Assembly: GCA_003576705.1 (NCBI GenBank)
Contig: QOZS01000010.1
Span: 1-64,000 of the forward strand
Reading direction: 5' to 3'
From: Desertibaculum subflavum
GTDB taxonomy: Bacteria > Pseudomonadota > Alphaproteobacteria > Ferrovibrionales > Ferrovibrionaceae
Length of the DNA stretch: 64,000 nt
How positions within the stretch are numbered: the first letter of the stretch is position 1; each line of letters opens with the position of its first letter. This document shows positions 42,008 through 57,248 of the stretch, one piece after another. The notes under the pieces were generated by a model. It made no database searches and was not told where the DNA came from. It worked only from the letters and a program-made list of their open reading frames with translations. Both the position numbers and the translations under genes were made by a program.

Positions 42008-45000
42008 ATGGCCACCAAGGGGAAGAAGGGCGGCGAGTCGGCCGCGGGGAAATCCGGCAAGACCGCATCGCGGAACGCCAAGACGGCGGCGAAAGCCCCG
42101 GCCGCGCGTGCGGCGGCGGCCAAAGCGGCGACGGCGAAGCCGGCGGCGGCGACAACCCGCACGGCCGCGGCAACCGTGGTCGCCGCCACCGATCGGGTCA
42201 GCGCCGTCGCTGCGGTCGGCGGCGTCACCGCCGGGCCGCTCGACCGAGGCACGATCGTCACTGGCCCGATCGTCACTGGCCCGACCGTCACCGGGCCCAT
42301 CGTCGCGGGCCCGATTACCGACGGCCCGATCATCGCCATCCCGGTGCTGGACTTCACCGGCAACCTGTTCGAGGCCGGGCGGCCGGGCACAGCCGTGGTG
42401 CGGCCGGACGATCTGCTGGCGCTCCGGGTGGAGCGGCGCAACCTGAACATCGTGCCGGGCACGCCGCCGCGCCTGGTCAAGGCCGGCAGCGGCAGCGCCT
42501 TCCTGATCCTGCATTTCCCGCCGCAGGCGATCACCGAGGAGACCTTCTTCGAGGCGGCGCCGCCGGCGGTGAGCAACCCGCCGCCGCAGCGCCCCGACGA
42601 GCCGGCCAAGCCCGATCCGCCGGGCGGCACCGAGGACCCGCGGGTGCCGCCGATCCGCGCCCGCATCGCCGGCGAATCGCGCGTCGCCTTCCAGGTGCCG
42701 GACGGGTTCGACATTCCCTACACCTTGGAAGGCGTGCTGGAGGCCTGCCGCACGTTGGCGCTCAGCGTCGCGGCCAATGCACGTCTACCAGGGCCGACCA
42801 TCTCGGTCGTGCAGGTCAGCGATCTGTTCAATGTCAGCGCGGTGAAGGCGCTGAAGCCGCAGCAACGCGCGGCGCTTTCGAGCTTCGCCGCGCGCAGCGT
42901 GCAGATCGGCGCGATCCAGGGCGACAGCGCGACCCTGCGCATGCGGCAGTTCACGGCGGGGCCGGCGACCAGGGCATTCGCCGTTCAGGTGGGGCGCATT
43001 CCGGATCTGAGCATAAGGCCGAATCCGCCGCGGCCGGCCTTGCCCGCTTCGACCGCGACATCGATCGAGTTCCCCTGGCGGCTGATCCTGTCGCCGCATG
43101 CCGACGAGCGCTGGCATCATGCATCAGCGCCCGCCACCTCGCCGGCGACGGGACGGACCGAGCTCTGGCATTCCCGGCTGGTCGCGCCGAACAGCAAGGG
43201 TGAGGTGATCGAGCCGCCCTATCCCGACCCGCAGCGCACGGTGCGGGCAATCTGGGCGCTGACCGGCGAGAGCTCGACCAGGAACATGCAGAGCGCCTGG
43301 CCGGACCCGTCGGCGGATCTGCCGCCGCCGAGCACCAGCCCGTTCCGCATGCCGATGGACGATTTCGACCGCTTCCAGATCGCCCATCTGTCCTCGAACT
43401 TCTCGGTCTCGGGCTATTCGCCGAATGCGGTCAACACCGACCTGATGATGCTGTCCTCGCTCGGCGCCTGGCTCGATTCGCGCGGCGTCTGGGACCCGCC
43501 GGGCCTGTCGGTCGAGGAATGGGTGCACCGCGCCAGCATGGCGCGCGACCACTACGTGCGTATCGTCTATCGCGGCTTCCTGTACCCGTTCGGCCACCGC
43601 GTCTCGTTGGTCAAGGTGAGCGAGCGCAAGTTCCACAACGGCAAGGCGACGACCGAGCAGAAGCCCGGCAACCCCGCCTATCTGCGCCAGCGCCTGTTCA
43701 TAATCGTGCGCGAGCGCGAGCGGATGTTCGACGACCCGCGCTACCAGAACATTCGCGACATGGCGGGCAACGTCTTCTACATCCGCCAGTTCCCGTTCTC
43801 GAGCGTGCGCATCCTCACCCAGGTGACGCCCAACCTGGACCAGCCGAATGTCGGGCCGTCCAAGATTGACAATTTCGGCCAGCTGATGTTCTGGCCGCAT
43901 GTCGGCGGCCAGCCGTTCAAGTTCCAGTGCGTCGCCACCGATCTCGACGGGCACCGCATCGCCTTCGACCTGCCCATGATCTTCATGGACAACACGCTGG
44001 CCTGCCCGCGCAGCTTCAATCCCACGACCAAGAAGCTGGAGCCGCAATTCGCCGCCGCCGAGACCAACGCGATCGCGGCTCGCAACGCATTCGACGCCGG
44101 CGGCGGCAAGAACATCGCCGGCATCAAGCAGCAGCGCGTCGCCCTGGCGACCAGCCTGAAGCCCGGCGACACCTCGGTGCAGGTGGAGAACATCATCTTC
44201 GGCGGCGAGGCGGAGCAGAACAATACATTCCTGCGGAACATCAGCGACGACCTGTCGCGGCCGGTCTTCTTCCCCAAGATTCGCGAGACACGCGCCCGCA
44301 TCGGCGCGCTGGCGCATCTGACCGGCAGCGCGAAATCGAACAAGCTGCTCTGGAACGCGCATTACCTGAAGCACGGCTTCGACACGAACAAGGGCCAGGT
44401 CTTCGTCGACGTGGCGAACGAATCGGGCATGGCGACGCTCGACTTCTCCGCCCAGGGCGACCGCTCCGGCGGCTATGTGCAGCCGAATATGAAGCCGAAC
44501 GCGCTGTCGCGCTTCGCCGGCCCGGTCATGGGCGATGTCGGCCAGTTCATCGCCGGCACGGTGCCGGATGGCGGCGGCTTCCCCACCTCGATCAGCGATT
44601 TGCCGCTGCCGCTGCTGTTCGGCTGCATCCCGCTCGGCGAGCTGATCAAGGCGGTCGTCGACCTGGTGGACGCACCGGACAAGATCCCGAAATTCGGCAG
44701 CGAGGCGGCGAACCAGGTCGAGAGCTTCATCAATGGCCTGGCGCGGCTCTACGGCTTCGTCATCGATCTCGCCGCCAAGCCCGGCAGCATCGCCGATGCC
44801 GCCATGGCGGCGTTCAAGGCGACGCTGACCGATCTGCTGCAGCAGGGGCAGGCCTATGCGGCGGCGCAGATGGCGCCGGTGCAAGCGGCGGCGAACCAGC
44901 TGACCGCAGCGCTGAACGACGTCATCGCCAAGGTGCAGCCGCTGATCGACGCGGCGATCGACGGCGCGCCGGCGTTGCCCGCGCTCGGCCAGCTGCCGGC

Positions 45001-46489
45001 CTCGATCACCCAGGCGCGCGCCCGCGTGGCGGACCTGAAGAACGCTGCCAACGCCAATGTCGGCGGCGCGACACTGCCTTCGGGCCTGCGCCAATCGATC
45101 CTGAGCTTCGCGCAAGGCCTGGATGGCTTCCTGGCCGACCTGCAGGCCTTCCCGACCCTGGTCACGCAAGGCAAGGCGCTGTTCGACGCGCTGGACGCCA
45201 TCGTCGGCCAGCCGGACCAGATCGGCACCCTGTTCTCCGATCCCGGCGCCTTGCAGACGCGTGTCGAGGCCGTCGCCAACGCCATCGGCCCGCTGAAGAC
45301 GACGGTCGGCGGGATCAAGCTGCTCGACGGCGCGCCGCGCAAGGCGATCGTCGAGGCGATGAGCGCGGTGGAGCAGGTGCTGGGCGGCGTCGCCGACCTG
45401 CTGCAGCTGGTCGAGATGCTGACCGGCGAGGAGCTGACCATCCGCTTCGACTGGAATCCGCAGATCGACAATTGGTGGCTGCCCGGCGTCAGCCACTCGG
45501 AAGACCCGATCTTCCGCGCCAACGACAAGCGCGGCTTCCTGGTCGCGGTCGAGGCCAAGGTGAAGAAGACCGGCGGCTCGACGCCGAAGATCAACGTCAC
45601 CTGCGGGCTGAAGCATTTCGACCTGATCCTGATCGCGCCGGCGAGCTTCATGGAGCTGAACTTCGAGAAGATCGAATTCACCGTCGACAGCGCGGCGAAG
45701 ATGGATGTCGACGTGCTGCTGAGCGACATCAAGTTCGTCGGCCCGCTTTCCTTCGTCGAGACCTTGCGCGACCTGATCCCGCTCGACGGGTTCAGCGACC
45801 CGCCCTTCCTCGACATCTCGCCGCAGGGCATCGATGCCGGCTTCAACATTGCGCTGCCGGGCATCACCGTCGGCGTGATGAGCCTGACCAATCTCAGCCT
45901 CGGCGCCGGCTTCACCATTCCCTTCATCGGCCAGCCGCTCAGCGTCCGCTTCAACTTCTGCACCCGCGAGCAGCCGTTCTGCCTCACCGTCTACATGTTC
46001 GGCGGCGGCGGCTTCTTCGGCGTCACCATCGATCCGCACGGCGTGCAGATCCTGGAAGCCTCGTTCGAGTTCGGCGCCTCGATCTCGATCGACCTGGGCG
46101 TGGCATCCGGCGGCGTCTATGTGATGGCCGGCCTCTATTTCCGTATGGAGCAGGATGCCGCCTCGCTGACCGGCTATTTCCGGCTGGGCGGCCATGTCGA
46201 CGTGCTCGGCATCATCACCGCCTCGCTCGAGCTCTATCTGGAGCTGCGCTTCGAGTTCGAGAGCGGCAAGTGCGTCGGCAAGGCGAGCCTGACCATCGAG
46301 ATTTCGGTCTTCATCTTCTCCGGCAGCGTCACCGTCACCTGCGAGCGCAAGTTCGCCGGCGCCAACGGCGATCCGAGCCTGCGGCAGATGCTGGGCTTCC
46401 AGCCGGAGCTGCCGCTGGATGACGAGCTGGCATTGATCGACGCGAACACCGACTACGCGTGGCGCGAACACTGCGAGGCATTCGCCTAA
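42008..46489 (+). CDS. Giant protein A of unknown function, paired with protein B
   Basis: 1493 residues from the ATG at 42008 (AAGGGGG 7 nt upstream). Residues 1-60 form a Lys/Ala-rich histone-H1-like tail. Residues 81-110 are six pentapeptides of the type G-P-I-V-T. Residues 110-860 are a mixed, mainly beta region with several Trp/Arg-rich blocks, for example WVHRASMARDHYVRIVYRGF. Residues about 870-1130 are helical and Ala/Gln-rich. Residues 1150-1460 are alternating hydrophobic strands ending in SGSVTVTCERKFAGANGDPS. No signal peptide, RTX repeat or catalytic motif is recognised. Protein B follows after 14 bp. I do not know its function; the strand-rich end could form an amphipathic sheet. 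Confidence 0.8.
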   Translation: MATKGKKGGESAAGKSGKTASRNAKTAAKAPAARAAAAKAATAKPAAATTRTAAATVVAATDRVSAVAAVGGVTAGPLDRGTIVTGPIVTGPTVTGPIVAGPITDGPIIAIPVLDFTGNLFEAGRPGTAVVRPDDLLALRVERRNLNIVPGTPPRLVKAGSGSAFLILHFPPQAITEETFFEAAPPAVSNPPPQRPDEPAKPDPPGGTEDPRVPPIRARIAGESRVAFQVPDGFDIPYTLEGVLEACRTLALSVAANARLPGPTISVVQVSDLFNVSAVKALKPQQRAALSSFAARSVQIGAIQGDSATLRMRQFTAGPATRAFAVQVGRIPDLSIRPNPPRPALPASTATSIEFPWRLILSPHADERWHHASAPATSPATGRTELWHSRLVAPNSKGEVIEPPYPDPQRTVRAIWALTGESSTRNMQSAWPDPSADLPPPSTSPFRMPMDDFDRFQIAHLSSNFSVSGYSPNAVNTDLMMLSSLGAWLDSRGVWDPPGLSVEEWVHRASMARDHYVRIVYRGFLYPFGHRVSLVKVSERKFHNGKATTEQKPGNPAYLRQRLFIIVRERERMFDDPRYQNIRDMAGNVFYIRQFPFSSVRILTQVTPNLDQPNVGPSKIDNFGQLMFWPHVGGQPFKFQCVATDLDGHRIAFDLPMIFMDNTLACPRSFNPTTKKLEPQFAAAETNAIAARNAFDAGGGKNIAGIKQQRVALATSLKPGDTSVQVENIIFGGEAEQNNTFLRNISDDLSRPVFFPKIRETRARIGALAHLTGSAKSNKLLWNAHYLKHGFDTNKGQVFVDVANESGMATLDFSAQGDRSGGYVQPNMKPNALSRFAGPVMGDVGQFIAGTVPDGGGFPTSISDLPLPLLFGCIPLGELIKAVVDLVDAPDKIPKFGSEAANQVESFINGLARLYGFVIDLAAKPGSIADAAMAAFKATLTDLLQQGQAYAAAQMAPVQAAANQLTAALNDVIAKVQPLIDAAIDGAPALPALGQLPASITQARARVADLKNAANANVGGATLPSGLRQSILSFAQGLDGFLADLQAFPTLVTQGKALFDALDAIVGQPDQIGTLFSDPGALQTRVEAVANAIGPLKTTVGGIKLLDGAPRKAIVEAMSAVEQVLGGVADLLQLVEMLTGEELTIRFDWNPQIDNWWLPGVSHSEDPIFRANDKRGFLVAVEAKVKKTGGSTPKINVTCGLKHFDLILIAPASFMELNFEKIEFTVDSAAKMDVDVLLSDIKFVGPLSFVETLRDLIPLDGFSDPPFLDISPQGIDAGFNIALPGITVGVMSLTNLSLGAGFTIPFIGQPLSVRFNFCTREQPFCLTVYMFGGGGFFGVTIDPHGVQILEASFEFGASISIDLGVASGGVYVMAGLYFRMEQDAASLTGYFRLGGHVDVLGIITASLELYLELRFEFESGKCVGKASLTIEISVFIFSGSVTVTCERKFAGANGDPSLRQMLGFQPELPLDDELALIDANTDYAWREHCEAFA
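42248..42337 (+). repeat. Pentapeptide tandem repeat in giant protein A
   Basis: Six consecutive 15-bp units encode GTIVT, GPIVT, GPTVT, GPIVA, GPITD and GPIIA (residues 81-110). The same repeat type occurs near the C-terminus of the neighbouring protein B at 50983-51027. Confidence 0.85.
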
Positions 46490-46503
46490 GGGGGGCGCAG
46501 ACC

Positions 46504-49500
46504 ATGGCCAAGCAGACAATCCTCTGGACGGTGCTGCCGCACGGACGGGTCGAGGAAGGCCCGATGAAGGGCCGGCGCCGGGTCAGCGTGGTGGTGTCGC
46601 CGCGGCTGACGCCGCAGGCCGCCGACGAGCAGGTGCTGAAGGCCTTTCCGGAATTCCTCGACTGGCCGGCGACGCTCGCCGCGGCGAAGTTCCGCCTGGT
46701 GCTGGGTCCCGTCACTGTCGGCCTGATTCCACTCAACGGCGGCGATTCCACATTGTGGGGCAAGCTGTTCGATGCCGACACGCCGGTCGCCGGCTTCCAG
46801 TTCAAGGATATGAGCAAGGTCAACCTGCGCAGCTTCCAGGTGCGCAACGTGCTCGGCTTCCTGCGTCGGCATTACGGCCGGCTGGCGGTGCAATCGACCG
46901 CGAACCACCCGACCTTGCTGCCCTGGCGCAACGCACATCCCGACCTGAAGGGCATGCTGGGCGCGCTGGGCACGCGCACGCAGAAGTTCAATTTCGGCGA
47001 CCGCAGCGTGGAGGTGGCGCTGCCCGGCTTCTCGCGCTTCTTCAACGACGATGCGCGGGACTCGATCGAAGGCCGGCTCAAGCGCCAGGTCTTCGCCGCC
47101 GAGGGACTTTATCGCGTGCCGGTTCCCGCGATCGATGCGCCGGAAGCGGGCTCGCCGCCCCAGGCCGGCGATGCCGTGCTGCGCGTATTGCCGGCGGATT
47201 GGCACGACCCGGCGGGCGGCGGGCCCGATGCCGGCCTGATGAGCCAGTTCGCCGGCGCCGACGAATACGCCTTCTACCAGGCCGACCGGTTCTACCGCCG
47301 CGAGCCGCCGAGCGACGCGCAGCGCAAGATGCGGCGCCCATCGTATCAGGACATCCCGGCGCCGCCGAAAGTGCCGGACTACGACTTCCACCGCACCGTC
47401 GCATCCTATGCGGACTATCCGCTGCTGCTGCGCGCGCTCGGCCTGATCGTCGATTGCGCGCTGGAGGATGACGGACCGATCGACGCCAAGGTCGCGGCCG
47501 GCGGCGGCACCGGCAAAGGCCTGATCTCGCTGCAGATCGGCTGGGCCAGCAACCACAACCCGGCCGACGACACCACGCCGCGCACCGCCTGGACCGCCGA
47601 CAAGGAGCGATTCTTCACCCGCCCGCGCCGCAACGAGTTCGACCGTGGCCTGCTGCGGCTGGAACAATCCGACGACGGCTGGGGCGTGAAGGGCAAGGAC
47701 AAGCCCGGCCTGTTCGACATCTATCAGGTCGATCCGGACGGCGCCTCGCTGAAGACCGTCGGCTTCACCTTGTCGGCGCAGAACCTGGTCGCCAAGAGCC
47801 TGAGCCTGCGCCAGATCGACGGCGAGGTGACCTATACGACCGGCGACAAGCAGCCGGTGGCCGCCTTGCGCTCCGGCGGGCTCGGCGTGTCGAAGCACGG
47901 CCGGGCGACCCAGGTGGCGCAGGATGCCGCCGCCGCCGCGCTGAAGAACCACGTGGTGGATCAGGGCAATGGCGGCAACGTCGTGTTCTTCGCCGAGGAC
48001 GTGCTGCGCGGCTATCGCATCGACGTCGCGCCGGTGCCGGACCCCGCCGCGCCCGGCAAGTGGCTGACGCTCTGCGCCCGGGCCGGCAATTACCGCCTGA
48101 TCGAGGCGAACGAGATCCTGAGCCTGCCGCCGGACGAGGGCTATGTCTCCGGCGCCTCGACCTCCAGCACGGCGAGCGCCAATGTCGACCCCGACGACCA
48201 CTACCTGCACGAATCGCTGTTCCGCTGGACCGGCTGGAGCCTGTGCACGCCGAGGCCCGGCCTGGTGCTGCGCGCGAAGCCGGTCGACGACACCCAGCTG
48301 CAAGCCGAGGAACCGACCCAGGTGAAGGACGAGGCGGCGAACGGCAATGGCCTCGCCGTCGAGTTCAAGGCGCTGAAGGGAACCTTGCCGCGGCTGCGCT
48401 TCGGCCAGCTCTATCGGTTCCGGGCGCGCGTGGTCGATCTCGCCGGCAACAGCCTGTCGAAGGACGACCCAACCTTGGGCGATCTGGAGCAGGCGAGCGA
48501 TGCGGTCGGCTATTGGCGATTCGAGCCGGTCGACCCGCCGGCCATGGTGCAGCGCGGACGGCTGAGCGAGGGCGAATCGCTCGAGCGCCTGGTGATCCGC
48601 AGCAATTACGACGCCGACACCGCGAACTATCCGGCGACGGCGGATTTCGCCGCCGCCATCGCCCTGCCGGCTTCGCAGGATTTCGAATATCCGCCGGAGA
48701 ACGAACGCCACCTGGTGCCGCCGAAATCCTCGCAGCAGCAATGCGAGGGCCACGGCATGTTCGATCCCTTCTTCGCCGATCCGCTGACCATCAAGGACGG
48801 CTATGCCATCGCGGCGCGCGAGGCGGGGACGCTTTACGATCCGACGCCGGGCGCGCAGGTCGAGCTGGTGACGCCGGCCTCCCTCACCGAGGTCGCGACC
48901 ACGGCGGCGGTGCCGCCGGCCCTGCCGGCGCCGGACAACCCGGTCGGCGACCGGCTGCGCGGCGGGCAATACGTCATCCACCGCGAGGAGCTGATCGAGA
49001 CGCCCTATCTGCCGGATGCCGCCGCCGGTGGCATCGCGCTACGCGCCGCGCCGGGCCATGCCATCCCCGGTGTCGCCGGCGAGATGGTGCTGGGGCCGAG
49101 CTGCGTGATCCGCTTCGCGCCGAACCAGGAACTGGTGCTGCTGGTCTCGCACCGGAACGACTGGCCGAAATCGCAAGGCTTCCGCCTGATCCTGGCCGAG
49201 CGCCAGGCGGCGCTGGTTGATCTGCCCTGCGCCGAGACCTTCACTGACGCCGGCGCACCGGTCTGGGACGAGGACGCACGCACACTGACGCTGTTCGTCG
49301 CCAAGGGGCGCATCGTGCGCCTGGTCTATTCGAGCTTCGCCCATCCGGCGCTGATCAAGACCTTCGGCGTGCCGCACTGGACCCAGAACGATGCCGAGCG
49401 CGAATTCGTCATGGGCATGGCGGTGATGGGCGCGAGCTGGATGCTGACGCCGTTCCGCCACCTCACCCTGGTGCATACGACGCAGCAGCCTATCTGCCTG

Positions 49501-51222
49501 CCGGAACTGCTGTTCCTGTCGGCGCCGCGCGAGATCGGGGCACATCACACCGACCTGTTCTGCCGCATCGTGCGCCTGCACGGGCCATCGACCGGCAAGT
49601 TCGAGATCGAGGCCGACTGGCACGAGTGGACCGACGACCTGGACAAGGACGCGCCCGAGCGCATCCCGCATAAGGGCCAGCTCGGCGAGATCCAGCTCGC
49701 CGAGAACCATGTCAACGAGTTCAACCTGGGCGCTGCCGTCGAGGCCTCGCGCATCGCCGACGACGACAATCCGCAGGGCTTCAACCAGGAGCGCCAGCGC
49801 GCCCGCGGCGACCGGCACGATTTCGGCGATACCCGCTTCCGCCTGGTGCATTACCGCGTGCGGGCGACGACGCGGTTCCGCGAGTACCTGTCGCGCGCCC
49901 TCTATGCGCAACGGGACCTGGTCACCCGGCTCGGCCCCGTCGCGCTCGGCGAGCGGGTGAAATTCGGCGCCGAGGACGATCCCGGCGCGCCGGTGCTGAC
50001 CGATCCGACCGGCGGCGAGGAACAGACCCTGGTGCGGGCGACCGCGCCGCCGGACGATCCGCGCGTGCTCTACATCGTGCCGACCTTCCGCTGGCAGCGG
50101 AGCGACAGCGCCGATACGCGCCAGGTCACACGCTTCGGCAACGGCCTGCGCGTCTGGCTCGATCGGCCGTGGTTCAGCTCCGGGGATGGCGAGCTGCTCG
50201 GCGTCGTCCTGTTCGGCGACGGCGCGCGCTTTACCGACGTGCCGCCACATATGCAGGCGCTGGTCACGCAATGGGGCCTGGACCCGCTGTGGGACACCGC
50301 GCTGCCGAAATCGAAGACCAGCATCGCCGATTTCGCGGCGCGCGTGCGGGCCGAGGCGGTTCCGCTGCAGGAGCGGCCGAACGATCCCTTGGTCCAGGTG
50401 GTCGGGCATCGCGTGCACTGGGATGCTGGCCGCAAGCTCTGGTATTGCGATATCGAGCTCGATCCGGGCACCACGTACATGCCGTTCGTGAGGCTGGCCC
50501 TGGTGCGCTATCAGCCGAACGCGCTGCCGAACGCCAAGGTCTCCAAGGTGGTGCTGGCGGAGTTCGCCCAGGTGCTGCCGCGCCGGCGCGCCGTGCTGAA
50601 GCGCCAGGGCGCCGCGACCGGCATCACCCTGCACGGCGCCGTGCCGCATTTCGGGCCGATGAAGTTCCCGGTCGATTCCGAATATCAGGACATCTCCTTC
50701 ATCCAGGGCGCGCACGAGACCGGGCGCAACCGGGTCGAGCTGGTGCTGCAGACCCGCGACCCGGCAATCGACAGCGACCTCGCCTGGAGCGACACGGCGA
50801 CGCTCGGCAATGCCATCGTCGGCGAGGGCGACAGCGGCACCAATCCCGGCGGCATCTTCGCCGAACCGTTCGTTGCCGCCGCGGCGACCCGCGTGGTGCA
50901 GCCCCGCGCCGGCAGCGCCGTCCGGCTTGCTTCGGAAGTGGAGCTGCAGGCGGCGGTCGGCATCCGCGACCGCGTCGCCGGCGGCCCCGTCGTCGCCGGA
51001 CCGATCGTCACCGGGCCGATCGTCACGCTCGACCCGCCGATCTGGACCGCGACGGTGACGGTGCCGGGCACCGGCGGCAAGCCGGGCCGCCTGGTGCTGC
51101 GCGAATTCGAACGCTACTACACCGATCGCACGGTGCCGGAGAACCGCGCAGGCGCCGTTCGCCGCCGCCGCGTCATCGAGGAGCGGCTGGTCTATGCGGC
51201 GATCTTCGACCTGCCGGTCTAG
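46504..51222 (+). CDS. Giant protein B of unknown function, paired with protein A
   Basis: 1572 residues from ATG 46504 (GGGGGG 8 nt upstream), 14 bp after protein A. No signal peptide or membrane helix is obvious. Recognisable blocks are the N-terminal VVVSPRLTPQAADEQ and FPEFLDWPATLAAAKFRL, and a well-ordered FHRTVASYADYPLLLRALGL near residues 296-315. Much of residues 350-1490 is beta-rich with many Trp, Arg and Asp. Residues 1494-1508 are three GPIVT-type units, followed by about 65 residues ending in a basic RRRRVIEERL and FDLPV. No known domain is recognised. It ends 2 bp before the convergent HlyD gene's stop. A and B probably form a complex or act in succession. Confidence 0.8.
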   Translation: MAKQTILWTVLPHGRVEEGPMKGRRRVSVVVSPRLTPQAADEQVLKAFPEFLDWPATLAAAKFRLVLGPVTVGLIPLNGGDSTLWGKLFDADTPVAGFQFKDMSKVNLRSFQVRNVLGFLRRHYGRLAVQSTANHPTLLPWRNAHPDLKGMLGALGTRTQKFNFGDRSVEVALPGFSRFFNDDARDSIEGRLKRQVFAAEGLYRVPVPAIDAPEAGSPPQAGDAVLRVLPADWHDPAGGGPDAGLMSQFAGADEYAFYQADRFYRREPPSDAQRKMRRPSYQDIPAPPKVPDYDFHRTVASYADYPLLLRALGLIVDCALEDDGPIDAKVAAGGGTGKGLISLQIGWASNHNPADDTTPRTAWTADKERFFTRPRRNEFDRGLLRLEQSDDGWGVKGKDKPGLFDIYQVDPDGASLKTVGFTLSAQNLVAKSLSLRQIDGEVTYTTGDKQPVAALRSGGLGVSKHGRATQVAQDAAAAALKNHVVDQGNGGNVVFFAEDVLRGYRIDVAPVPDPAAPGKWLTLCARAGNYRLIEANEILSLPPDEGYVSGASTSSTASANVDPDDHYLHESLFRWTGWSLCTPRPGLVLRAKPVDDTQLQAEEPTQVKDEAANGNGLAVEFKALKGTLPRLRFGQLYRFRARVVDLAGNSLSKDDPTLGDLEQASDAVGYWRFEPVDPPAMVQRGRLSEGESLERLVIRSNYDADTANYPATADFAAAIALPASQDFEYPPENERHLVPPKSSQQQCEGHGMFDPFFADPLTIKDGYAIAAREAGTLYDPTPGAQVELVTPASLTEVATTAAVPPALPAPDNPVGDRLRGGQYVIHREELIETPYLPDAAAGGIALRAAPGHAIPGVAGEMVLGPSCVIRFAPNQELVLLVSHRNDWPKSQGFRLILAERQAALVDLPCAETFTDAGAPVWDEDARTLTLFVAKGRIVRLVYSSFAHPALIKTFGVPHWTQNDAEREFVMGMAVMGASWMLTPFRHLTLVHTTQQPICLPELLFLSAPREIGAHHTDLFCRIVRLHGPSTGKFEIEADWHEWTDDLDKDAPERIPHKGQLGEIQLAENHVNEFNLGAAVEASRIADDDNPQGFNQERQRARGDRHDFGDTRFRLVHYRVRATTRFREYLSRALYAQRDLVTRLGPVALGERVKFGAEDDPGAPVLTDPTGGEEQTLVRATAPPDDPRVLYIVPTFRWQRSDSADTRQVTRFGNGLRVWLDRPWFSSGDGELLGVVLFGDGARFTDVPPHMQALVTQWGLDPLWDTALPKSKTSIADFAARVRAEAVPLQERPNDPLVQVVGHRVHWDAGRKLWYCDIELDPGTTYMPFVRLALVRYQPNALPNAKVSKVVLAEFAQVLPRRRAVLKRQGAATGITLHGAVPHFGPMKFPVDSEYQDISFIQGAHETGRNRVELVLQTRDPAIDSDLAWSDTATLGNAIVGEGDSGTNPGGIFAEPFVAAAATRVVQPRAGSAVRLASEVELQAAVGIRDRVAGGPVVAGPIVTGPIVTLDPPIWTATVTVPGTGGKPGRLVLREFERYYTDRTVPENRAGAVRRRRVIEERLVYAAIFDLPV
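50983..51027 (+). repeat. Pentapeptide repeat in giant protein B
   Basis: Three consecutive units GPVVA, GPIVT, GPIVT (residues 1494-1508), matching the N-terminal repeat of protein A in sequence and in codon choice (CCG ATC GTC ACC). Confidence 0.8.
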
Positions 51223-51224
51223 AT

Positions 51225-52541
51225 TCAGTTCTCGCGCAGCGCGCGGTTCATCGAGTCGCTGATCGGGCGGAACAGATAGGCGAACAGGGTCTGCGATCCG
51301 GTGCGGACCATGGCCTCCACGGGCATGCCGGGATAGAGGTCCTGCCCCGCGGGCAGCGCCGCGCGCTCTACCACGACGATGCGCAGCAGATAAAACGACG
51401 CGCCGGTGCGCGGATCGCTCACCCGGTCGGGTGACACCTTGAGCACGCGTCCTTCGACGGGGCGGGTGCTGCGCTGGTTGAACGCGGTGAAGTGCAGCTC
51501 GACTGGCAGGCCCGGCTGCACCAGGTCGATATCGCCGGTCGACATCTGCGCCTCGACGATCAGCTGCTCCTCCGCCGGCACGATCTCCATGATCGCCTCG
51601 CGCGGCGGTACGACGCCGCCGACCGTATGCACCTTCAGCCCCTGGATGCGGCCGGAGACCGGTGCGCGGATCTCGGTGCGCCGGAGCACGTCCTCGGCGG
51701 CATAGATCTTCTCCCGCGTGTCGAGAATGCGCGCCTCCTCGTCGCGCAATTTCTGTGTCGCCTCCGACAAGAGCTGCGCCTTCAGGTCCAGGGCGCGCAT
51801 CTCGTTCTCGCCGATCAGCTGCCGGCCGCGGGCGATGCGGGCGACGTTCTGCGCCCGCCGGCCTTCGATATCGGCCGCCGTGCGTTGCAGCGCCAGCAGG
51901 CGCGGCCGCCGCTCCAGGCCCTTGGCCATCAAGGTCTCCACGTCCTCGGTCTCCTCGCGGATCAGCCTGATCTGGCGGTCCTGCGCCCTGATCTCGTCGG
52001 CGAGACCGCGCAACTCCTCGTGCACCTGGGCCGTGCGCTGGCCGAGAATGCGGATCTGCCCGTCGATCTGCTCGCGGCGCGCCTCGAAGATGCGCTGCTC
52101 CGCATGCATCAGGTCGGCCACCGCCGGATCGCCCGCCGCTCGCGTCAGCTCGACGGGAAAGGCGATCGCCGCCGCCCCGTCGCGCTCGGCCCGCAGGCGG
52201 GCCTGCAGGGCGAGCGCGGCGTTGAGCTGGCCGCGCAGCCGGTCGACGGCCGACTGCACGATGGTCTGGTCGAGCGCCACCAGAAGCTGGCCGCTCTGCA
52301 CCTCGTCGCCCTCCCGCACCAGCAGGCGGCCGACGACGCCCCCTTCCAGGTGCTGGACGGCCTTGCGGTTGGTATCGACCACCACGGTGCCGGGGGCGAT
52401 GGCCGCGCTTTCGAGTGGCGCCAGCGCCGACCAGGCGCACATGCCGCCGAAGAAAGCCGCCGCTGTCGCCGAAGCCAGCAGCAGGGGCCGTGCCACACCG
52501 ACCGCGCGCCGCATCTCCATCCGATTCGATTCGTCGGACAT
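51225..52541 (-). CDS. Type I secretion periplasmic adaptor (HlyD/PrtE family)
   Basis: 438 residues from ATG 52541, with AGGAGG 6 nt upstream; it overlaps the ABC transporter stop by one base (TGATG). One N-terminal membrane helix (around residues 14-35) is followed by a lipoyl-like half-motif (VDTNRKAVQHLEGGVVGRLLVREGDEVQSGQLLV), long coiled-coil helices (residues 85-260) and the second lipoyl/beta-barrel half (IRAPVSGRIQGLKVHTVGGVVPPREAIMEIVP). It bridges the inner-membrane ABC transporter to a TolC-type outer-membrane channel, which is not in this window. Confidence 0.93.
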   Translation of the reverse strand: MSDESNRMEMRRAVGVARPLLLASATAAAFFGGMCAWSALAPLESAAIAPGTVVVDTNRKAVQHLEGGVVGRLLVREGDEVQSGQLLVALDQTIVQSAVDRLRGQLNAALALQARLRAERDGAAAIAFPVELTRAAGDPAVADLMHAEQRIFEARREQIDGQIRILGQRTAQVHEELRGLADEIRAQDRQIRLIREETEDVETLMAKGLERRPRLLALQRTAADIEGRRAQNVARIARGRQLIGENEMRALDLKAQLLSEATQKLRDEEARILDTREKIYAAEDVLRRTEIRAPVSGRIQGLKVHTVGGVVPPREAIMEIVPAEEQLIVEAQMSTGDIDLVQPGLPVELHFTAFNQRSTRPVEGRVLKVSPDRVSDPRTGASFYLLRIVVVERAALPAGQDLYPGMPVEAMVRTGSQTLFAYLFRPISDSMNRALREN

Positions 52542-54286
52542 CACTCACCTCCTGCCGCGGCACGGGCGCCGGCGGCAACCATCCGATTGGCCGGCACGCG
52601 CAGCACGCGGCCGCGTTCGTCCGCCGCGGCCAGCACGGCGTCGCGCGGACCGAAGGCCTCGACACGGCCGTCACGCAGCTTGAGCACGAGATCGACCAGG
52701 GCGAGCACCGAGAGCCGCTGCGCCACCAGCACGACGGTGACCGCGCGCTCCTTGAGGGCGCGCATCGCCGCTTGCAGCGCCTGCTCGCCTTCGGCGTCGA
52801 GATGCGCGTTCGGTTCGTCGAGCACCACCAGGCGCGGATCGCCGAACAGCGCCCGCGCCAAGCCGATGCGCTGGCGCTGGCCGCCGGAGAGCGCGACCCC
52901 GCCGGGCCCGACGATGGTGGCGTAGCCCTGAGGCAGGCGAAGGATCATCTCATGCGCGCCGGCGAGCTGGGCTGCCTGCACCACCTCCTCGTCCGAGGCG
53001 TCGGTAAAGCGGGCGATATTGTCGCGCACGCTGGCGTTGAACAGCTCCACGTCCTGCGGCAGGTAGCCGATATGGCGCTGCTTGTCGGCTTCGGCCCACT
53101 CCGCCACCGCGCCACCGTCGAGGCGCACCTGCCCCGCCAGCGGCACCAGGCTGCCGACCAGCAGTCGCAGCAAGGTGGTCTTGCCGGCGCCGGAGGGGCC
53201 GAGGATGGCGAGGGCCTGCCCGGGCTCCAGCGCAAAGGAAGCCTGGCGGACGATCGGCGCCGTGCCGGGGCCCGCGCCGAAACTCGCGCGCTCGACCGTC
53301 AGCCTGCCGGCCGGACGCGGCAGCCGCATGCGCTCCGGGCCGTTGCCGGCGGCATTCAGCAGCTGGCAGACCCGCGACCAGGCCGCCTGCCCGGTGACGA
53401 TCGAGCGCCAGGCGACGATCGATTGCTCCAGCGGGGCGACGGCGCGGGCGACGATGATCGAGGCCGCCACCATGGCGCCCGGGCTGAGCTCGGCCCGGAC
53501 GGCGAGATAGGCGCCGAGACCCAGCGTCGCCACCTGCAGGCCGAGCCGCACGGCCTTGGCCACCGCGCCGAGCAGCGCCGACCGGTGGCCGGCGCAGAGG
53601 AGGTGCGCCAGCGCCCCGTCGCTTGCCGCCGACCAGCGGCGGAGGAAGCTCGGCAGCAGGCCCATGGCCAGCATGGCATCGGCATTGCGGATCGCCGCAT
53701 CGGCCTCGCCGAGGGCGCCGGCGCTCTTCTGGCCGGCCGCCTTCAATTGCCGCCGGCTCGCCAGCTCGTTGGCGCCGGCGACGGCGAGCAGCAGAAGACC
53801 GCCGGCAACGGCGCACCAGCCGAGCCAGGGATGGATCAGGAAGACGACGCCGTAGAACAGCAGGCTCCACGGCGCGTCGAGCACGGGCCAGAGCGCACCG
53901 CCGGCGAGCATGCCGCGGACATTGGCAAGATCGCGCAAGGCCGGCACGCCGCGGCCGCCGCCCGATGCTTGCGCGATCCCGGCCGTCGCGGCGACGACCG
54001 GCGCCGCCAGGCGGCGCTCCAGCCAGGCGCCGAGGCGAATGCCCACCACGGAGCGCACGCCTTCCAGCACGCCATAGACGGCGAGCGCCGCCGCCGCCAT
54101 CAGCGTCAGATAGAGCAGCGTGTCGAGATGGCGCGCCGCGATGACCCGGTCATAGACCTGCAGCATGTAGAGCGGGCCGGTCAGCATCAGCAGGTTGATT
54201 CCTGCGCTGACCGCGAAGGCCGAGAGCAGCACGGCGCGCGCCGTGCGCCGCGCGCCGCCGAGCAGCCGATCGGAAGACGATGGCAT
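52541..54286 (-). CDS. Type I secretion ABC transporter (PrtD family)
   Basis: 581 residues: six-helix membrane domain (residues 20-300) and an ATPase. Walker A GPSGAGKTTLL is near residue 365, the ABC signature LSGGQRQRIGLARAL near 470, Walker B LVVLDEPNAHLD, and an H-loop. It lacks the N-terminal C39-like domain of HlyB, so it is a PrtD/AprD-type exporter that recognises uncleaved C-terminal signals. The start is preceded by GGGGGAG. It follows the RTX gene on the same strand after a strong hairpin, so that protein is its likely substrate. Confidence 0.94.
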   Translation of the reverse strand: MPSSSDRLLGGARRTARAVLLSAFAVSAGINLLMLTGPLYMLQVYDRVIAARHLDTLLYLTLMAAAALAVYGVLEGVRSVVGIRLGAWLERRLAAPVVAATAGIAQASGGGRGVPALRDLANVRGMLAGGALWPVLDAPWSLLFYGVVFLIHPWLGWCAVAGGLLLLAVAGANELASRRQLKAAGQKSAGALGEADAAIRNADAMLAMGLLPSFLRRWSAASDGALAHLLCAGHRSALLGAVAKAVRLGLQVATLGLGAYLAVRAELSPGAMVAASIIVARAVAPLEQSIVAWRSIVTGQAAWSRVCQLLNAAGNGPERMRLPRPAGRLTVERASFGAGPGTAPIVRQASFALEPGQALAILGPSGAGKTTLLRLLVGSLVPLAGQVRLDGGAVAEWAEADKQRHIGYLPQDVELFNASVRDNIARFTDASDEEVVQAAQLAGAHEMILRLPQGYATIVGPGGVALSGGQRQRIGLARALFGDPRLVVLDEPNAHLDAEGEQALQAAMRALKERAVTVVLVAQRLSVLALVDLVLKLRDGRVEAFGPRDAVLAAADERGRVLRVPANRMVAAGARAAAGGE

Positions 54287-54307
54287 TTCCGGTTCTCCCC
54301 CTGGCCT

Positions 54308-54339
54308 GCGGCCGGCACCGGCTCGCCGGTGCCGGCCGC
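54308..54339 (-). terminator. 14-bp hairpin between RTX and ABC transporter genes
   Basis: GCGGCCGGCACCGG (54308-54321) pairs perfectly with CCGGTGCCGGCCGC (54326-54339) around a CTCG loop. There is no U-tract on either strand. It lies 8 bp after the RTX stop. It may stabilise the RTX mRNA or reduce transcription into the exporter genes, as described for other RTX operons. Confidence 0.6.
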
Positions 54340-54347
54340 GGCGTTCG

Positions 54348-57248
54348 CTAGATCAGGAAGCTGTCGGCCTGCAGCGAGGCGAGGGAGTGGTCGGCGATCG
54401 TCATCTTGGTGCCGTCGTCGAAATCGATGACGATGTCGCTGCCGATCTCCTTCGCCAGAGCCAGCAGGGCGGCATAGTCGCCGATATCCTTGCCGCGCAG
54501 GTCGATCAGGTCCTCGCCGACGGTGAAGCCCTGGATCTCGATGTCATCGCCTTCGCCGCCATCGATGATGTCGATGCCGAGCCCGCCGAGCAGCACATCG
54601 TGGCCGGCACCGCCGATCAGGATATCGTTGCCGTCGCTGCCGATCAGCACGTCGTCGCCATCGCCGCCATTGAGGGTAAGGCCGATCGCGCCGACCGCGA
54701 CCCCGGAGGCTTCGATCACATCGTCGCCGTCGCCGGCGTTGATGACGAGGCGGTCGTTGGCCGCCTCGGCGCCGGTGATGTTCAGCTGCGCGGCGAGACC
54801 CAGCACGCTGACCCCGCCCGCATCGCCGACCACCAGGATCACGTCGTCGGCATTCGTCGCGTTCGCGGTCACCGTATCCGGCTGCGCGTCCCCGAGGCCG
54901 TTCGACGCCGCCAGGTTGACGTTGACCTCGGTAACATCGGTGCCGGTGAGGTCGTTCATGACGATGTTGTCGGCGCCGCCGAGGGCATCGAAGTCGATGC
55001 TCTCGACGTCGTTCAGGTCCATGGTGACAGTGGCGACGTTGCGGAAGAAGATTGCCCGACCGCCATTGGCCGAGATGGTGATGTTCTCCGCCACGTTGGC
55101 GCCGTTGAAGTCCATCGTGTCGAAGCCGTCCTGGCCTTCGAGCGTGTCGTTGTCGTCGCCGGGGTTCCAGGTGAAGCGGTCGTCGCCGGCGCCCATCAGG
55201 GCAAGGTCGTTGCCGTCGCCGCCGGTGAACAGGTCGCCGCCCTCGCCGCCGATGAGAACGTCGTCACCGAGGCCGCCGTTCATGGTGAGCTGGATGCCGT
55301 CGGCCTCCAGGCTGGTCGCGTCGATCACGTCGTCGCCGCCGAGCCCGTTGAGGGTCAGCCGGTCGTTCGCCACTTCGGCGAAGAAGGCATTCACCGTGGC
55401 CTGCAGCCCGAAGACAGTGATGCCGCCGGCATCGCCGGCAACGCCGAACACGTCGTCGCCGTTGGTACCGTTGGCCGTGATGGTGTCGGCCGCGCCGTCG
55501 CCGCCGCCATTGGGCCCGCGGAGATCGATGCCGATCTGGGTGACGTCGGTGCCGGAGAGATCGCCGATGACGATGTTGTCGGCACCGCCAAGGGCCCGGA
55601 ACTCGATGTTCTCGACGTCATTCAGGTCCATGGTGACGTTGGCGACGTCGCGGAGGAACAGCGCGCGCCCGCCATTGGCCACGAGGTTGATGGCCTCGCT
55701 GGCATTGCTGCCGAAGAACAGCATGGTGTCGGTGCCGGCCTGGCCTTCGATGACATCGCTGCCGTCGCCCGGGTCCCACTGGAACACGTCGTTGCCGGAT
55801 CCCAGCAGGGCCACGTCGTTGCCGTTATCGCCGAACACGAAGTCGTTGCCGCTGCCGCCGAGGATCACATCGGCGCCCTGGCTGCCGAGGATGGTGTCGT
55901 TGCCGGCGCCGCCGTCGAGCGTCAGCTTGATGACGCCTGCCGGCATGGTGGTCGCGGTGATCCCGTCGTCGCCATCGAGCCCGTTGATCACCAGAGAGTC
56001 GTTCGCCCCTTCGCTGTTGGTGACGTTGATCTGCGCCGCCAGTCCGACAACCGAGACAGAGGTGCCGGCGCCGAACACGTCGATGATGTCGTTGCCATTG
56101 GTTGCATTGGCGATCACCACATCGGCCGCCGCATCGCCCGTATTGCCGCCGATCGTCCCCGCCAGGTTGACATTCACCTGCGTGACGTCGGTGCCGGACA
56201 GGTCGTTGACGATGATGGTGTCGGTATTGCCGAGCGCGTTGAGATCGATCTTCTCGACATCGTCCAGGTCCATGACGATGTTGCCGAGATTGCGGGTGAA
56301 CGACACCCGCCCGCCATTTGCCGAGGCCTGGAAGATTTCCGCGCCGGCGCTGCCGTTGAACAGCATGGTGTCGGTGCCGCCCTGGCCCTCGACCACGTCG
56401 CTGCCGTCGCCCGGGTCCCATTGGAAGGTGTCGTTGCCGGCGCCGAGCAGGGCCACGTCGTTGCCCTGCTGGCCGTCGATGAAGTCGTTGCCCTCGCCGC
56501 CGATCAGCAGGTCGACGCCGTTGCTGCCGAGGATGGTGTCGTTGCCGGCGCCGCCATCGACGGTGATCTTGATCAGCGCCGCGAGATTGCCGGTGGCGCT
56601 GAAGCTGTCGTCGCCGCCGCCCATATTGACGACGATGTTCTCCATCGTGCCGATGTCGAGGGCGAAGGGCGCCGGATTCAGCCGATCGAAGCGCACGCGC
56701 GTGCCGTTGGCGGTGATGGTGAACTGCTCGGCGCCGCCGCCGCCATTCACCTCCACCGTGTCGATGCCCGCGCCGCCTTCCATCAGGTCGGTATCGTCGC
56801 CGGGGTTCCAGATGAAGCGGTCGTTGCCGCTTTCGCCGAACATCTGATCGCTACCGTCGCCGCCGATCAGCACGTCGTCATCGGCGCCGCCGAACAGGAA
56901 ATCATTGCCGCCCTTGCCTTCGAGGCGGTCGTTACCGGACTGGCCGAACAGAAAGTCGTTTCCCGAGCCGCCGATTGCGGTGTCGTTGCCGGTGCCGCCG
57001 AATATCTGCACAGCGGGCAGAGCGCCGTTCGATTCGTCGACCACCAGATTGTCGTCGCCGCCCTGGCCGAAAATGTTGATCTTGGCGGTGTTGGCGACCG
57101 TCGGCGTGCCGCCCGCGACGACGACCGCGCCACCATTGACCAGGATCTGGCCCGCGGCGTTGCGGCTGATCGTGGTTGTATTGTCCAGGGCATCGCCCAG
57201 CACGGAAAGCTGTCCGCTGGTGGGAATGAAGAATGCCGCTATAGCCAT
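54348..57248 (-). CDS. RTX calcium-binding protein, type I secretion substrate
   Basis: 966 residues, very rich in Asp, Gly and Asn and nearly free of Lys and Cys. Multiple RTX nonapeptides of the form G-G-x-G-x-D-x-L-x are present, for example GGSGNDFLFG and GGAGHDVLLGG. They are arranged with beta segments (AEQFTITANG-type) in three long repeats of 214, 212 and 203 residues (residues 228-856), with a partial copy before them. Residues 920-966 form a non-RTX end finishing in LASLQADSFLI, which fits the acidic-hydrophobic C-terminal type I signal. No enzymatic domain is recognised; it is likely an adhesin, S-layer or matrix protein. AGGAGA lies 8 nt before the ATG. Confidence 0.92.
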   Translation of the reverse strand: MAIAAFFIPTSGQLSVLGDALDNTTTISRNAAGQILVNGGAVVVAGGTPTVANTAKINIFGQGGDDNLVVDESNGALPAVQIFGGTGNDTAIGGSGNDFLFGQSGNDRLEGKGGNDFLFGGADDDVLIGGDGSDQMFGESGNDRFIWNPGDDTDLMEGGAGIDTVEVNGGGGAEQFTITANGTRVRFDRLNPAPFALDIGTMENIVVNMGGGDDSFSATGNLAALIKITVDGGAGNDTILGSNGVDLLIGGEGNDFIDGQQGNDVALLGAGNDTFQWDPGDGSDVVEGQGGTDTMLFNGSAGAEIFQASANGGRVSFTRNLGNIVMDLDDVEKIDLNALGNTDTIIVNDLSGTDVTQVNVNLAGTIGGNTGDAAADVVIANATNGNDIIDVFGAGTSVSVVGLAAQINVTNSEGANDSLVINGLDGDDGITATTMPAGVIKLTLDGGAGNDTILGSQGADVILGGSGNDFVFGDNGNDVALLGSGNDVFQWDPGDGSDVIEGQAGTDTMLFFGSNASEAINLVANGGRALFLRDVANVTMDLNDVENIEFRALGGADNIVIGDLSGTDVTQIGIDLRGPNGGGDGAADTITANGTNGDDVFGVAGDAGGITVFGLQATVNAFFAEVANDRLTLNGLGGDDVIDATSLEADGIQLTMNGGLGDDVLIGGEGGDLFTGGDGNDLALMGAGDDRFTWNPGDDNDTLEGQDGFDTMDFNGANVAENITISANGGRAIFFRNVATVTMDLNDVESIDFDALGGADNIVMNDLTGTDVTEVNVNLAASNGLGDAQPDTVTANATNADDVILVVGDAGGVSVLGLAAQLNITGAEAANDRLVINAGDGDDVIEASGVAVGAIGLTLNGGDGDDVLIGSDGNDILIGGAGHDVLLGGLGIDIIDGGEGDDIEIQGFTVGEDLIDLRGKDIGDYAALLALAKEIGSDIVIDFDDGTKMTIADHSLASLQADSFLI
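54681..56567 (-). repeat. Three long tandem repeats in the RTX gene
   Basis: Units at 55926-56567, 55290-55925 and 54681-55289 (214, 212 and 203 codons). Each begins LTxDGGxGNDTILG or a close variant, runs through WDPGDGSD-type and LSGTDVTQ-type blocks, and ends before the next xTLNGG. They are diverged, so the expansion is not recent. Confidence 0.8.

Follow-up and report, generated by a model that had tools for sequence, protein, structure and literature searches.

Constant pairing of two giant proteins of no recognized family, and a possible export of the pair through the twin-arginine translocase

Two adjacent genes of Desertibaculum subflavum, here designated A and B, encode giant proteins that are kept together: A is found directly upstream of B, on the same strand, at 61 of the 61 loci at which this could be tested, across five phyla or more. 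Neither protein matches a known family. The proposal of an undescribed two-component unit, made in the initial annotation, is thus supported, and it is this pairing, and not the pentapeptide repeat that the two proteins share, that is the real finding. Large, constant in its order, thinly widespread and without a known domain, the pair points to a real, unstudied molecular machine. Judging from sequence comparisons, there is a good probability that the pair encodes two subunits of one obligate complex. The best explanation overall, toward which we lean, is that of an obligate A-B complex, ancestrally exported by the twin-arginine (Tat) translocase, with B riding on A.

Under this explanation, the tightly linked genes would encode the two components of a single large heteromer, obligate in nature; in the ancestral state, the twin-arginine signal of A would carry the already folded B through the Tat translocase (hitchhiker export), and the exported complex would have its place of action in the periplasm, at the envelope or extracellularly, accompanied in some lineages by a secreted hydrolase or by other proteins that are exported. 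In the alpha/beta-proteobacterial clade of the window, the complex would be devoid of a signal and probably cytoplasmic or exported by another route, A starting with a basic, Pro/Gly/Ile-rich stretch instead. We infer the physical complex, the co-export, the ancestral state and a structural rather than an enzymatic role.

The gene pair, its constancy and its distribution

In the window, by which we mean the whole stretch of 64,000 nucleotides analyzed (contig QOZS01000010.1), gene A occupies positions 42008..46489 (1493 aa, calculated mass 159 kDa) and gene B positions 46504..51222 (1572 aa, 172 kDa), both on the plus strand, as are all the features of the pair mentioned below. The sizes of 1493 and 1572 codons and the 14-bp gap originally reported were all confirmed, the gap (46490..46503) containing a GGGGGG stretch. 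Both genes start with ATG (at 42008 and 46504), with a purine-rich stretch ahead of each, and their G+C contents are 0.678 (A) and 0.695 (B), versus 0.685 for the whole window.

As to the pairing, 63 loci were inspected, comprising the window, 14 loci from a scan of genome contigs, 4 distant loci, 15 and 17 further ones, a contig from IMG/VR and 11 plasmid regions; two of these (L008 and L012) start within B, and at the 61 testable ones the pair is intact, the homologues thus being far from widely unpaired. Outside the 63 were two B fragments on separate contigs (G670 and G1417), three plasmid records, in which A and B are paired by match coordinates, and three further records. Gaps were tabulated for 55 A loci, of which 53 have the pair delimited on one locus. 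All 53 delimited pairs are co-oriented, with A directly upstream of B. Their nominal gap has a median of 14 nt, stays within 50 nt in either direction in 48 of them, and spans -137 to +406 nt overall, the value of +406 at L144 being due to A being split in two ORFs. Seen from the side of A, 14 of the 14 plasmid records with A have B alongside. The pairwise identities of A and B are correlated (r 0.89 for 1220 pairs; r 0.64 for the 1155 pairs under 50% identity), which would fit joint inheritance, for a correlation that compares A with B only.

The distribution of the homologues is sporadic and includes plasmids. The scan of genome contigs produced 14 loci with a B relative, including Rhizobium, Elioraea, Pelomonas, Pseudoxanthomonas, a mycobacterium and Litorilinea, as well as bins from metagenomes that bear titles such as Acidobacteriaceae and Ignavibacteria. 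A bin titled Bradyrhizobiaceae (L013) is probably mislabelled or mis-binned, as its A is nested within the Ignavibacteria clade. With the B profile, at E values up to 1e-10, the positive genomes number 5 of 398 in the phylum of the window, 8 of 346 in the mycobacterial phylum, 7 of 201 in the Litorilinea phylum, 7 of 199 in the Acidobacteriaceae phylum, and 13 of 296 in the phylum of the Ignavibacteria genome, each count including one or two genomes known beforehand. Neither protein was detected by single-protein search in a sample of 60 genomes related to that of the window. In the Litorilinea phylum, G882 (L095, L096) and G860 (L094, L099) are genomes with two pairs each. Among plasmid records, 10 contain B and 14 contain A; B was found in no phage record, and phage structural proteins, for which there was also no significant PHROG match, were rejected as an identity. 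One IMG/VR contig (L160) contains both A and B; the ORFs beside the pair on this 'viral' contig resemble, by eye, terminase and HNH genes, and it is perhaps a prophage edge. Overall, the pair is rare and widespread, and it has probably been transferred between lineages.

A distant subfamily (L028/L047, L029/L048, L030/L049, L031/L050, L165-L167, L169, and L170) is represented by A proteins of 2275-3311 aa and by B proteins of 1537-2002 aa, the B of L166, which is split, being the exception. Its A proteins score at E values of 3e-126 to 6e-85 with the A profile, and its B proteins at 7e-74 to 1e-21 with the B profile (5e-13 for the first piece of the L166 B). The two profiles recognize 55 of 55 A and 55 of 55 B-type sequences given to them.

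Searches of Pfam, NCBIfam, PHROGs, PADLOC and the PDB sequences gave nothing significant for either A or B, the best rows, all insignificant, having E values of 0.2 (Pfam), 0.011 (PHROG) and 0.11 (NCBIfam). The original statement that the two proteins have no recognizable catalytic domains thus held in these searches, neither protein having a confident match to a well-known family, and no obvious catalytic set was seen, by eye, among the highly conserved positions. A 12-member alignment of B matched no profile, and a 12-member alignment of A gave coiled-coil/apolipoprotein-type signals only. PADLOC returned no families at E values up to 1 for four proteins (A and B of the window and of L047/L028), and a known anti-phage defence system was rejected on these grounds. 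No alpha-2-macroglobulin match was found for B in Pfam, while Foldseek gave weak rows for a Salmonella alpha-2-macroglobulin (E 1.3e-3, probability 0.13) and for complement C3 (probability up to 0.54). Among the papers listed by keyword searches of the literature, none describes the pair in its title or the start of its abstract, and the passages that three terms retrieved from a Cupriavidus genome paper do not concern it. In terms of annotation, A and B each define a family missing from the libraries searched.

Sequence features and the GPIVT repeat

The N-terminus of A (42008..42247), which corresponds to the Tat-signal region of many homologues, is Lys/Ala-rich, with 9 K, 4 R, 28 A and 2 D/E among the first 70 residues, and possesses no Tat signal. 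An H1-like basic tail had been described for A; the basic region is indeed present, but it is the N-terminus and not a tail, and it is not conserved. The amphipathic alternation suggested for the strand-rich C-terminal region of A was borne out by hydropathy autocorrelation over residues 1246-1450 (45743..46357), a conserved long-strand amphipathic beta region (z of -4.5 at lag 1 and +3.8 at lag 2, versus shuffles), and the same test found no alternation of comparable size in six other stretches of A and B. Residues 890-1110 of A (44675..45337) display a helical pattern in this test and make up an amphipathic insert that is poorly conserved, gapped in L009 and L014, with a coiled/apolipoprotein-type profile signal in some homologues. 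At the very end of A (residues 1485-1493; 46460..46486) is a motif, W-x2-[YH]-[CA]-x-A-F, whose strict form is found in 33 of 55 A sequences, with and without the Tat signal, with variants in other main-family sequences; it is absent from the distant subfamily, and with the strict form at this frequency it was dropped as a universal feature. In B, residues 1312-1318 (LWYCDIE; 50437..50457) lie in a conserved block by which the distant subfamily, too, is retrieved, and a literature search for this motif found no paper.

The GPIVT-type repeats were present as described, six in A (GTIVT-GPIVT-GPTVT-GPIVA-GPITD-GPIIA) and three in B (GPVVA-GPIVT-GPIVT). At the DNA level, they are encoded by tandem arrays of a 15-bp unit, at 42248..42315 in A (4.5 copies, score 87) and at 50990..51026 in B (2.5 copies, score 60), the latter preceding the last conserved segment of the protein (residues 1514-1572; 51043..51219), and the unit is nearly identical between the two arrays. 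That the shared repeat would dock A to B, as originally suggested, might be argued from this near identity, from both linkers belonging to the clade of the window, and from the GPI repeats in both proteins of Pelomonas L007. However, within this alpha/beta-proteobacterial clade of 10 members, the linkers, at the N-terminus of A and before the last conserved segment of B, are rich in Gly, Pro, Ile and Val and variable in sequence. The GP[IVT] counts in A and B are five and three in the window, three and five in L007, and at most one per protein in the other eight of the 10 members (the count for L164 being for the first 150 residues), and the Cupriavidus B has GAI repeats instead. Both linkers are missing from the aligned members outside the clade, and the repeat lies outside the conserved core. 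The array in A is not conserved, and, but for L007, the repeats are largely absent outside this strain. Homologues thus keep the pairing and do not keep the repeats. As judged by its composition and variability, the GPIVT repeat is a low-complexity linker and not a conserved docking code, and we consider docking through it very improbable.

Twin-arginine signals and the genomic neighborhood

Many A homologues start with a twin-arginine signal, one example being SRRKFLSYAGILGATPVIG in L142. Using a script that requires the motif and an uncharged hydrophobic core, a Tat-like signal was recognized in 28 of 55 A and in none of 53 B. The background was 3 of 510 internal A windows and 9 of 241 other neighboring ORFs of 300 aa or more, a rate that may be too low, since the neighbor set comes from a simple ORF caller and has some wrong frames. 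The signals of L093, L096, and L170 were accepted by eye, for a total of 31 of 55 A, and near the start of B an uncharged hydrophobic signal core was found in none of the 53. In many lineages, A has the only export signal, and as this is of the Tat type, for folded cargo, B most likely leaves as a passenger; as A carries this folded-protein export tag in many relatives, A and B probably form one very large complex that formerly left the cell. The Tat signals of the relatives argue better for a physical A-B complex than the shared repeat does.

Neither A of the window nor the A of the other nine members of its clade possesses a Tat signal (0 of 10), and the window pair is thus not classed as Tat-exported. 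The signal is also lacking in A of the mycobacterial group, L009, L088, L089, L098, L146/L147/L160, and L156-L158; with several clades lacking it, export would not be needed everywhere. It is present in nine of nine members of the distant subfamily and in 22 of the remaining 45 A, on many deep branches. On a tree of 54 A proteins, rooted at the midpoint and with 15 of 51 branches open (L087, being short, was omitted, and L162 is broken), the Tat state changes six times, versus a mean of 17.8 when shuffled, with none of 500 shuffles as low. The simplest reading would be an ancestral Tat signal with several losses, the reverse order being also possible with a root that is the midpoint.

The summed nominal mass of the Tat-type pairs (28 pairs, L092 being omitted as incomplete, L166 as split, and L050 as having B on another slice) is 259-572 kDa, which is above the cargo of about 150 kDa that is given for Tat in a passage of a review (PMC6708511). 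In L165, a Sinorhizobium meliloti plasmid, a 55-aa TatA-family gene follows B by 49 nt (PF02416, E 2.4e-9), and on the 436-kb contig of L030 a TatA-family ORF lies downstream of B with one gene in between (PF02416, E 2.2e-8); A is of about 3000 aa in both. Three PF02416 genes are present in the L030 genome, of which two lie side by side at another site and one is in the A-B cluster, and four other genomes tested, including that of the window, have two each. A simple TatA pattern missed both of the clustered genes, the one in L165 being known from annotation and the one in L030 from a phmmer search with it. No third tatA was found by phmmer with the first as a query at loci longer than 7000 bases, a search that a divergent TatA could escape, so that the count is 2 of 61 loci with a single query. 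As L165 and L030 are in one starred clade, the clustering may be one event. That A-B is an undescribed class of giant exported complex, with Tat moving a folded heteromer of ~260-570 kDa in the Tat-bearing lineages and a dedicated TatA helping in one sublineage, is a tentative and somewhat doubtful proposition. If true, Tat would move a cargo far larger than has been reported for it, and the complex would be a novel type of envelope structure; if B rides A through Tat, the maximum folded cargo and the role of the dedicated TatA copies become testable.

Other neighbors vary. Genes for peptidases overlap or touch the end of B in L028 (trypsin-type, its signal judged by eye), L030 (M35) and L168 (astacin). 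In L167 a gene overlapping the end of B encodes a small protein with a signal-like start, a Zn-dependent phospholipase C being encoded upstream, and the L030 cluster includes a DUF4403 gene, seen in this one cluster only. Nine loci (L010, L013, L148-L154) have two further linked genes that themselves belong to no known family, the first with RCC1 repeats in its long form (L010), the second with the look, by eye, of an outer-membrane barrel. In the clade of the window, no neighbor family recurs in three or more loci. The window itself has a guanylate/adenylate cyclase upstream and, downstream, at 51225..57248 on the minus strand and convergent with A-B, genes for a HlyD-type adaptor, a PrtD-type exporter and a 966-aa RTX-repeat protein with nine PF00353 stretches, which together are an ordinary type I secretion locus. 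Overall, with neighboring hydrolases that vary from locus to locus, the neighborhood agrees with an envelope or extracellular role and offers no constant partner. As a separate observation, the distant pairs of L166, L169, and L170, on Rhizobiaceae plasmids, are near DNA-modification or restriction-like genes (dpdE/dpdF; an N-6 DNA methylase with PD-(D/E)XK and UvrD; a gene with an HsdR N-terminus).

Predicted structures, alternative explanations and known systems

AlphaFold models were obtained for A of L014, a short homologue of 987 aa, from residue 99 on (mean pLDDT 55.9, pTM 0.38) and for residues 1-1200 of B of L009 (pLDDT 65.5, pTM 0.54), with 13 alignment rows each, and the structure comparison effectively covered model residues 756-987 and 559-920, respectively; the models being too weak, fold assignment from them was dropped. 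Residues 817-951 of the A model, at its C-terminal end, form strands of 13-20 residues that come closest, in structure comparison, to outer-membrane barrels (BtuB, Z 10.2, rmsd 3.8, 171 aligned). The model is of low confidence, and similar scores are obtained with many barrels, as might be the case for any meander. Residues 785-920 of the B model match single FnIII domains (Z about 8), with no other trustworthy structural match. The models thus suggest an amphipathic sheet of long strands at the C-terminus of A and at least one FnIII-like sandwich in B. Our guess would be that the sheet and helices of A hold a membrane or a lipid ligand while B serves as a beta-sandwich scaffold, i.e., an envelope or lipid-handling scaffold.

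Three other explanations need to be weighed. One is that the complex is cytoplasmic, structural or enzymatic, and that the Tat signals are lineage-specific additions and not ancestral. The core is conserved though the clade of the window and several others lack the signal, and the root of the tree is a midpoint only; however, the presence of the signal throughout the distant subfamily, and in about half of the others on many deep branches, argues against it, and we regard it as unlikely. Quite unlikely, in our view, is that A is a pore or barrel former inserting its C-terminal strands, with B as a soluble partner and the linked peptidases and phospholipases activating or cooperating. The long strands with barrels as their nearest structures, the alternation in A of the window and the hydrolase neighbors point this way, but the model is of low confidence, barrels score alike, and homologues are present in Streptomyces and Chloroflexota, which are not known to have a classical outer membrane.

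The third explanation, of a lipid-binding or lipid-transfer particle, draws on an apolipoprotein profile matched by three of 12 A members (best E 9e-6), on P47 (TULIP) and microsomal triglyceride transfer protein among the weak Foldseek rows (E 0.011-0.089, probability up to 0.23), on the phospholipase C of L167 and on the DUF4403 gene of L030, DUF4403 being a TULIP family according to a passage in PMC6791001. As amphipathic-helix profiles are unspecific, the helical insert is missing in short homologues, and DUF4403 was observed once, we find it distinctly improbable. The obligate complex with B riding on A, ancestrally through Tat, is the explanation we retain.

Compared with known systems, the pair resembles several in part. 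RTX/type I secretion substrates are neighbors of the window pair, but A and B have no PF00353 nonapeptide (RTX) repeats and the HlyD/PrtD/RTX locus is on the other strand; A and B were rejected as substrates of this type, and beside the inspected homologues no RTX/type I secretion genes were found. The C-terminus of A, whose low-confidence model shows antiparallel strands that are long and amphipathic, is reminiscent of outer-membrane beta-barrel proteins, though without a sequence match, and B of L009 is reminiscent of FnIII/Ig-type multidomain proteins, also without a sequence match, a likeness that may be in the common sandwich arrangement only. Amphipathic helices and a sheet in A, and the one DUF4403 neighbor, recall the TULIP/apolipoprotein-type lipid carriers, though no homology of A to these is supported. 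Tat hitchhikers are a further comparison. Hydrogenases are such complexes. Another example is PaoABC of Escherichia coli (PMC4273604), and heterodimers of this kind are mentioned in PMC10924467. Unlike these, A-B has no recognized cofactor or redox domain, both partners are giant, and several clades, that of the window included, have no signal; like PaoABC, many relatives of the pair have a twin-arginine signal on one subunit and a partner without one, the two being encoded together.
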